NCBI RefSeq assembly: GCF_900100955.1 | Contig: NZ_FNCC01000020.1 | Coordinates: 62,001-126,000, forward strand | DNA: 64,000 nucleotides | From: Lentzea fradiae | GTDB taxonomy: Bacteria > Actinomycetota > Actinomycetes > Mycobacteriales > Pseudonocardiaceae | Direction of reading: 5' to 3' | Shown: piece by piece, positions 11,916-22,822 of the stretch | Numbering within the stretch: position 1 is the stretch's first letter | Layout: each line of letters begins with the position of its first letter | Notes under the pieces: generated by a model | The model's database searches: none | What the model was told of the DNA's origin: nothing | What the model saw: only the letters and a program-made list of their open reading frames with translations | Program-made: the position numbers and the translations under genes

Positions 11916-12656
11916 TCACACGCGGGCGACCGCGAAGATCCGCCTGAACGGGAACCACGTCGTGCCGTCGGCTCGCTGGGGGTACGCCTCACGCAGCCGC
12001 GGCGCGAGTTCCGCCACGAAGGTCTCGTAGTCCGTTGAGGACAGTGCGGCGCGCACCGGCCGCAGGGCCGTGCCGCTCACCCAGTCGAGCACGGGGTCCC
12101 GGCCGGTGAGCCGCTGCACGTACGTCGTCTCCCAGACGTCCACTGTGGAGCATCCGCCGAGCAGGTTCGCGTACTCCACCGGGCTCAGAACCGGTGTGCC
12201 GGAACGGAAGACGTGCCGCAGGGACGGTCCGGCGACCTCGCGGATCAGCCGGTGCGACGGGTCCGCGAAGTTGCCGGGCAGCTGGAACGCGAGCCACGCG
12301 CCGGGTGCCAGCGCGTCCACCCAGGACGACACGATCGAGGGATGCGACGGGATCCACTGCAGGACCGCGTTGGACACCACGACATCGGTGTCCGGCGACG
12401 GCGTCCAGGTGGTGACGTCGCCGACTCGGGCGTCCACCCCGGCGGCCCGTGCCGCCTCGACCATCTCCGGGGACGAGTCGAACGCCTCGACCACCGCGGA
12501 GGGCCACCGCTCGGACAGCGACGAGGTCAGGTTGCCCGGTCCGCAGCCCGCGTCGACCACCCGCCGGGGCTTCTCCGCCGCCACGCGCGCCACCAGCTCG
12601 TAGAACGGCCGCGCCCGGTGGTCGGCGAAGGCCAGGTACTGCGCCGGATCCCACAC
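11916..12656 (-). CDS. tam: trans-aconitate 2-methyltransferase family
   Basis: 246 aa beginning [18 protein letters not shown], the characteristic Tam start. Class I SAM methyltransferase motifs follow: motif [13 protein letters not shown], the acidic ribose-binding VEAFDSS, the GDVTTW region and [12 protein letters not shown]. Tam methylates trans-aconitate, which otherwise inhibits aconitase. The length matches the family. It overlaps no gene; the downstream neighbour at 11607 is convergent. Confidence 0.87.
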
Positions 12657-21967: not shown

Positions 21968-22822
21968 GTGCGCTGGACGTTGATCCTATTGCTCGTCGCG
22001 GTCGTCTTCGCCGTCCCCGACGCCGCTCCCTGCCGCGCCGGCCACGAGCTGTCGACTGATATATCGCGTGGCCCGGACCTCGTCGGCGAACCCGATATAT
22101 CGCATACCGGCAGTTCCGACGTCGCTTCACTGGTATCCAATATATCAGCTGCTGATATATTGGATATCGCAGCGGCGGGTGGTGTCTCCGACGTCGCCGT
22201 CGCCGTTCTCGACCTGCAGACCGACGAGGTCGTCGCGGAACGGGGCGACAAGCCGTTCTACTCGGCGTCGCTGTCGAAGCTGATCGTCGCCGTCGACGCG
22301 CTGCGCGGGCAGCTGTCCACGTCCGACGAGGACCTGGTTCACCGCGCGTTGAGCCTCAGCGACGACAGCGCGATGGACGTGCTGTGGACGCGGTTCGACG
22401 GCATGGGCGCCATCGGCCGTGTCGCCGCCGAAGCGGGTCTCACCGGCACGCACGCCCCGGACGACCCGTCGCAGTGGGGCGAGGTCGTCATCACCGCCAA
22501 CGACATGGTGCGGTTGTACCGGCACGTGCTCTCCTCACCGGCGCGAGACGCGGTCGTCGGGTCGCTGTCCGCCGCTCCCGCCGTCGCCGCCGACGGCTTC
22601 GACCAGGCGTTCGGCCTGCTCGGCGTCACCGGCGCCTACGCCAAGCAGGGCTGGATGTACTACCTGCCGAGCGACGTCCACCTGCACAGCGCGGGCGTGC
22701 TCGACGACCGGTACGCCGTCGCCGTCCTCACGACGAGCCCGACCGGCAGCTGGACGTCGGCCCGTGAGTCGATCAACGCCGTCGTCCAGGCCGTGCTGGC
22801 GAAGCTCAGCGTCAGCGGCTGA
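21968..22822 (+). CDS. secreted serine hydrolase, class A beta-lactamase-like with degenerate motifs
   Basis: 284 aa with a signal peptide (VRWTLILLLVAVVFAVPDAAP, cleavage near residue 20-24). Residues about 30-70 form a linker encoded by AT-rich DNA with GATATATC repeats. The penicillin-binding fold follows: VAVAVLDLQTDEVVAERGD, then SASLSKL giving S101-x-x-K104, SDDSAMD in place of SDN, and GAYAKQGW in place of KTG. The Glu166-type omega loop is not obvious. It is more likely a beta-lactamase-related hydrolase than an active beta-lactamase. Its end overlaps a convergent membrane-protein gene by 11 bases. Confidence 0.78.
   Translation: MRWTLILLLVAVVFAVPDAAPCRAGHELSTDISRGPDLVGEPDISHTGSSDVASLVSNISAADILDIAAAGGVSDVAVAVLDLQTDEVVAERGDKPFYSASLSKLIVAVDALRGQLSTSDEDLVHRALSLSDDSAMDVLWTRFDGMGAIGRVAAEAGLTGTHAPDDPSQWGEVVITANDMVRLYRHVLSSPARDAVVGSLSAAPAVAADGFDQAFGLLGVTGAYAKQGWMYYLPSDVHLHSAGVLDDRYAVAVLTTSPTGSWTSARESINAVVQAVLAKLSVSG
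22058..22168. repeat. cluster of GATATATC-type palindromes inside the hydrolase coding region
   Basis: GATATATC occurs at 22058-22065 and 22094-22101. It is followed by a perfect inverted repeat with 16-bp arms, TATCCAATATATCAGC (22134-22149) and its exact complement (22151-22166), around a single T at 22150. A GATATC follows at 22163-22168. All copies stand in the same reading phase and encode D/N-I-S/L in the linker of the hydrolase. The base composition is sharply different from the flanking GC-rich DNA. Confidence 0.9.

Follow-up and report, generated by a model that had tools for sequence, protein, structure and literature searches.

Short AT-rich palindromes confined to one mid-arm block of the Lentzea chromosome

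Within a stretch of 64,000 nucleotides from Lentzea fradiae (assembly GCF_900100955.1, contig NZ_FNCC01000020.1, positions 62,001 to 126,000; the window), a cluster of AT-rich palindromes lies inside a gene of the Beta-lactamase2 family, and its core motif, GATATATC, recurs across one contiguous block of the chromosome, with a dense core of about 0.4 Mb and an extent of 0.73 Mb in all. The sites avoid divergent gene gaps, prefer convergent ones, keep their positions between two species and are nearly absent from three others. We propose, at a probability of about 0.5, that the palindromes are genus-specific, near-palindromic recognition sites of a putative protein that would mark or organise a mid-arm domain of the Lentzea chromosome.

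In the 8.5-Mb genome to which the window belongs, GATATATC occurs 30 times, with 23 copies on contig C41, two on C42 (the window cluster), three near the end of C32, and one each on C19 and C28. C41, most of C42 and the C32 end are collinear with 216-800 kb of G002, a complete genome from the same genus, so that 28 of the 30 sites fall in one block; 151 of 178 called C41 open reading frames (ORFs) and 89 of 118 C42 ORFs match G002 1-800 kb, almost all of them collinear. G002 itself (9.998 Mb) carries 48 of its 49 copies at 53.9-785.1 kb, a span of 731 kb, including 41 within 383 kb (binomial P about 1e-53, not yet corrected by a scan factor of about 14). The hexamer GATATA, counted on either strand, appears 109 times in the first 800 kb of G002 versus three times in 400 kb of control chunks, which are G002 DNA here and in tests on other species. 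The sequence-only reading of the window had raised the case of similar palindromes scattered at random through the genome; such palindromes do exist elsewhere, but clustered rather than scattered.

The G002 origin is placed by dnaA at 2.8995 Mb, with three DnaA boxes and four parS-like 12-mers within about 7 kb, and the terminus by the single match, at 7.6616 Mb, of what we take to be the dif pattern. Measured from oriC (~2.90 Mb) towards dif (7.66 Mb), the block spans the 40-54% interval of one arm, and is thus mid-arm on one replichore, in neither the origin (Ori) nor the terminus (Ter) region. At the opposite mid-arm place, sampled in part, GATATATC is absent at 5.38-5.44 Mb, though a different motif may be present there. 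The block also carries an rRNA operon, at 268.8 kb in G002 according to a match of what we assume to be a 16S primer, and a gene that is presumably dapF.

The distribution relative to genes is also uneven. Sites within 200 bp were merged into 53 loci from C41, the C32 end and G002 180-600 kb, and these fall into 24 convergent gaps, 13 tandem gaps, a single divergent gap and 15 places in coding sequence. Per available gap, this amounts to 24/133 convergent, 13/385 tandem and 1/134 divergent (Fisher 3e-9, convergent versus the rest), with some error in the gap classes since genes were called by home-made codon-score scripts. Placement therefore avoids promoters and prefers convergent gene ends; in some cases the site shares bases with the TGA that ends the gene upstream (C41 4025 and 57044), and GC-rich inverted repeats coexist beside some sites.

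The motif itself is small. Across 73 aligned sites from the two species, the core GATATATC carries CC or GC at one end and AG (or GG) at the other, giving a consensus of about CC-GATATATC-AG, frequently accompanied by a GATATC or GGATAC unit; the flanks are unrelated among sites, and the common unit spans just 8-13 bp. In G002 1-800 kb, 18 of 48 sites have no companion within 30 bp and stand as lone 8-bp palindromes. When ten codons were compared at each of 17 sites inside other genes, aligned relatives showed zero insertions or deletions, all differences being substitutions. Three of these sites have a relative with identical amino acids in which the site is absent, as in GCG ATA TAT CAG of G002 against GCG ATC TAC CAG of C41, or CGA TAT ATC AGT against CGC TAC ATC AGC of G012, while the remaining coding sites differ from their relatives in amino acids too.

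The host gene in the window (21968-22822, plus strand) encodes a product that matches PF13354 (Beta-lactamase2, E 1.9e-14), with an N-terminus that looks signal-like by eye and a variable linker in which the site cluster lies. The cluster, to whose elements no strand is assigned, begins with GATATATC sites at 22058-22065 (codons GAT ATA TCG, D-I-S) and 22094-22101, the latter with a GCATACC tail that makes it GATATATCGCATACC, a recurrent variant. It continues with a perfect 33-bp palindrome at 22134-22166, whose 16+16-bp arms (22134-22149 and 22151-22166) flank a single T and contain the motif twice as inverted near matches, CCAATATATCAG at 22137-22148 and CTGATATATTGG at 22152-22163, and ends with a GGATATC companion unit of the second arm at 22162-22168. 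The two sites and the inverted repeat had been noticed from the letters alone, as had their common codon phase and the D/N-I-S/L residues that they encode in the linker, and both observations are confirmed, the units reading D-I-S, D-I-S, N-I-S and D-I-L. The maximum number of GATATATC in 100 dinucleotide shuffles of the window was 0 against the two present, and the 33-bp palindrome occurs once in its own genome. ATA, a rare Ile codon that accounts for 78 of 7329 Ile codons in ORFs of at least 900 bases (C41, C42 and G002 1-800 kb), is used four times in this linker.

Comparison of 20 full-length-match orthologues extends this codon usage beyond the one genome. ATA serves for 83 of 101 Ile codons in their linkers, as against 5 of 138 in the catalytic part; for Asp, the share of GAT is 128 of 196 in the linkers versus 14 of 425, where the end of the linker was set by a text anchor with which four orthologues ran on to 100 codons and that of G008 stopped early. 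At the first D-I-S place, 17 orthologues have GAT ATA TCG/TCA, one has D-I-S in other codons, and D-V-S and D-T-A occur once each. The orthologues give a mixed answer as to what is conserved: at least one GATATATC is kept in 18 of the 20 linkers (exceptions G012 and G016), but the 33-bp palindrome is perfect in only two, the remaining ones retaining 7-15 of 16 pairs. Recurring P-D-I-S-H/D-T units, in variable number, are present in the linker, and the expansion of a short repeat unit, as first suggested, covers this part of the linker but leaves the domain-wide sites unexplained.

The linker cluster is a conserved outlying patch. In G002, the orthologue lies ~168 kb origin-proximal of the dense core, with zero GATATATC in between, and is the densest place in the first 800 kb (four sites within 350 bp versus two elsewhere). 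Our best reading is that the linker is flexible and tolerates sites, forming a dense outlying cluster origin-proximal of the main block; the host protein has no shown part in the mechanism. In G006 the reading frame of the hydrolase orthologue is broken (two pieces, one TGA), in G011 only a remnant is left near 12,589, and G003 and G023 lack an orthologue-level match.

Site positions are kept between species. In a loose count (intervals up to 1500 bp, with one G002 site counted for two G000 loci), 11 of the 17 mappable loci among 21 in G000 have GATATATC in the corresponding G002 interval, versus 3 of 54 site-less control gaps; a strict count (intervals up to 600 bp) gives 7/11 versus 3/98. 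In species nearly devoid of the motif, the loose count falls to 1/16 in G011, 0/9 in G012 and 1/7 in G023, and the strict count to 0/10 in G011. Taken together, the use of rare codons, the synonymous changes at sites and the retention of site positions point to selection acting on the DNA at the sites, and these three lines lend support to the early suggestion that a DNA-binding protein may recognise AT-rich palindromes of this kind.

Across the genus, the 11-bp form CTGATATATCG has 10-36 copies in 21 of 24 genomes and 0-1 in G011, G012 and G023, whereas the reversed-pattern control is 0 in all 24. Among the matches listed, one 498-kb contig holds 32 of 33 CTGATATATCG copies of G007 and one 460-kb contig 26 of 29 of G019, the hydrolase gene included in each case. 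Of 397 genomes sampled across the order, three contain the 14-bp form TGATATATCGGATA; they are three of the four genus members, and the 393 from other genera have none. The 35 stretches with the 19-mer CTGATATATCGGATATCAG in the genome collection comprise 32 from Lentzea, one from a record labelled Nocardia sp. NRRL S-836 and two, chance-like, from gut bacteria; viral contigs gave zero matches. The Nocardia-labelled record carries the Lentzea motif, and its label may be wrong. In G034, from another genus, the motif was not found in 60 kb around dapF.

Loss and replacement have both occurred within Lentzea. G011 retains one GATATATC in 379 kb of the corresponding gene block. G012, which has one CTGATATATCG, is nested with support 100/99 among G016, G014 and G020 (13-33 copies) in a species tree that has nine open forks and a long G023 branch, and GC-rich relics are what remains at the two places examined in it, the dapF gap and the linker of the hydrolase. 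This loss suggests that the sites need active maintenance in a genome of 70% GC. In the dapF gap, exact GATATATC is present in 16 of 24 genomes and symmetric variants occur in G004 and G009. The G006 gap holds a different palindrome, GTTAGA-GGG-TCTAAC, the right part of which is present in that of G010. Basal G023 carries its own palindrome family in the block, CAATATATTG (type TGCAATATATTGCA) with CATTCTGCAT tails; ATATATTG occurs 15 times in 200 kb of its block versus once in 500 kb of G002 control, and in one case the G023 palindrome occupies the codon position at which G002 has a site.

These properties fit a bound-protein model through the placement of the sites, their restriction to one block, their maintenance against GC drift and their loss in single lineages. 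A sequence-specific DNA-binding protein would recognise the roughly 30-50 sites, and the bound sites might then be bridged or anchored, whereby the block would gain its own folding, position or segregation behaviour, as with MatP and matS. A fuller version, which we hold only tentatively and rate below the site-protein proposal, is a lateral mid-arm macrodomain that keeps its place while its sites turn over, with GATATATC in most species, CAATATATTG in the basal one, and only hairpins of the TTTGCAA/CATTGCAA type in others; a fast-evolving binding protein would co-evolve with the sites much like at centromeres, and the hydrolase linker would be a dense outlying cluster. If true, a mid-arm site family in an actinomycete, with natural site-less and motif-switched species, would offer a direct comparative test of the role of a chromosomal domain, as well as of protein-site co-evolution.

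Several results weigh against the proposal of a site-binding protein. Six of the 17 mapped loci lack an exact site in G002, three species live with 0-1 copies, the rest show a threefold spread in copy number, and the sites are spaced no more evenly than expected at random (P 0.32). The macrodomain sites known so far belong to Ori or Ter, and we know of no precedent for a one-sided mid-arm domain. Besides, the block contains a second hairpin family, which a single-protein model does not explain. The binding protein was not found by a gene-content comparison limited to domain genes, for which the G012 and G023 regions covered part of C41 and none of C42, so that the factor may be encoded elsewhere. 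The screen of C41 genes present in G000 and G002 yielded a mid-block CGNR zinc-finger regulator, c41_108, which is absent, together with a neighbouring hydrolase, from the regions of all three site-less species; its orthologues (at least 77% identity) occur in just 9 of 24 genomes, all among the 21 that bear sites, so this candidate was dropped, which also counts against the proposal. The MerR regulator c41_137, with both MerR domains in Pfam, is absent from the G011 and G012 regions and present in G023, and looks by eye like an ordinary metal-type regulator. A 191-aa ORF (C41:188870-189445) is weak in G011 and missing from the G012 and G023 regions.

The second hairpin family is longer and takes the forms CTTTGCAA..., CATTGCAA..., TTAGCAATGAGTC... 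and CCTTTGCAACGAGTCTTTTGCGGACGTCCGCAAACGTATTTTGCAT with variants, collectively the TTTGCAA type. In sampled DNA pieces, G002 has 15 such loci at 180-600 kb, one at 17 kb and none in 500 kb of other pieces; the family is present in G011 and G012, where GATATATC was lost, and at 19 of 33 other Lentzea loci, while C41 and the C32 end, in the genome of the window, yielded no member. Ten of the 15 G002 loci lie at most 200 bp from GATATATC (random mean 0.48, maximum 4), and the same gaps therefore collect two kinds of element.

This coincidence feeds the strongest rival, in which a selfish or mobile palindrome family resembling the REP and BIME elements multiplied only in the block, under an unexplained regional limit, with GATATATC, CAATATATTG and the TTTGCAA/CATTGCAA hairpins sharing or competing for gaps. 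Several palindrome families do inhabit the block and differ between species, the sites favour 3' gaps, as REP, BIME and REPIN elements often do, and the host-gene linker contains repeated units. We nevertheless consider this rival unlikely: the common unit is only 8-13 bp long and its flanks are unrelated, the 17 coding sites differ from aligned relatives by substitution, with no insertion or deletion in the ten codons compared, and the copy numbers of 30 and 49 compare with a usual figure above 100 per genome for REPs (PMC2817692).

Less likely still is a mutational or recombinational quirk of the block without function, arising from template switching or from ancient introgression of a motif-rich segment. 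Template switching can perfect palindromes, and the number of linker units varies, but the kept site positions speak against such an origin, as does G012, nested among species with 13-33 sites and left with one CTGATATATCG and GC-rich relics. A mobile island was also considered as a simple account and rejected, as gene order is collinear with G002 and G011 holds the corresponding gene block with one site.

The possibility that the elements act in RNA, as bidirectional terminators or mRNA-stabilising hairpins at gene 3' ends in the block, appears improbable to a further degree. The convergent-gap preference would suit such a role, window positions 22040-22190 fold better than shuffles (z -4.6), single sites reach z -9.6, and the dapF gap of G004 and G009 keeps inverted repeats with matched changes. 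As a class, however, the sites do not fold, with mean z of -0.88 for 18 isolated and -0.66 for 30 composite sites against mononucleotide shuffles, and more than a third of the G002 sites counted above are lone palindromes. In the 20 orthologues, the window palindrome shows a covariation score of 0.153, equal to the shuffled mean of 0.153, with 85.6% of cells paired, and sliding the palindrome partner lowers pairing, as expected for a repeat of inverted units. GC-rich inverted repeats stand beside some sites, and restriction to one block is left unexplained. The RNA hairpin put forward by the sequence-only reading is thus not borne out, since neither covariation beyond shuffles nor a common folding signal was detected, though single sites fold well. 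Its further idea that the palindromes serve the host gene as an operator, intragenic promoter or silencer is very hard to credit, and so is their control of an ordinary regulon: AT-rich palindromes do resemble PadR/TetR operators, but the motif occupies 53 merged loci in two species, almost never in divergent promoter gaps and mostly at 3' ends or inside many genes over 0.4-0.7 Mb.

Among the matches listed in searches of open-licence PMC text there was no paper on such sites in Lentzea, and of those listed for GATATATC none was relevant by title. Comparison with known systems places the Lentzea sites nearest to those that organise chromosome regions. The sites of ParB (parS), SlmA and Noc are palindromic and position-dependent, with ori-centred or Ter-excluding distributions, and parS, of consensus GTTTCACGTGAAAC, lies near oriC; in the G002 pieces examined, its core 12-mer is found only at 2.905-2.906 Mb near dnaA, with none in the block, and we know of no system of the parS, SlmA or Noc type confined to a mid-arm block. 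In contrast to PadR/TetR operators, the Lentzea sites do not occupy promoter regions, and, unlike intrinsic terminators, with their G+C-rich stem followed by a T run, they are AT-rich, lack a T run in the 73 aligned sites and show no folding as a class. They share with REP, BIME and REPIN elements the character of short palindromes in lineage-specific families (PMC2817692, PMC3733652, PMC3116915). They differ from REP and BIME in their far lower copy number, their single block and their substitution differences inside genes, and from extragenic 20-40-bp units that move as a whole in that 15 of 53 GATATATC loci are coding, with no insertions or deletions at the 17 coding sites.

In E. coli, both Ori and Ter have site systems that define the chromosome region (PMC5023128, PMC3330122). 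MaoP/maoS is the site-specific system of the Ori macrodomain (PMC5023128); the Lentzea sites resemble it as a site-specific system for one macrodomain, but number in the tens and lie far from oriC. The matS site of MatP is a 13-bp sequence with 23 copies in one 800-kb region, the Ter macrodomain of E. coli (PMC3330122). The Lentzea block differs from it in lying mid-arm and not around dif, in belonging to an actinomycete, in its site sequence and in a motif identity that changes between species. Since the block does not surround the terminus and the gene-content comparison yielded no binding protein, we propose that the Lentzea system works like MatP/matS rather than that it is one; what the two have in common is a short palindromic site present in tens of copies in one contiguous domain and nearly absent elsewhere.
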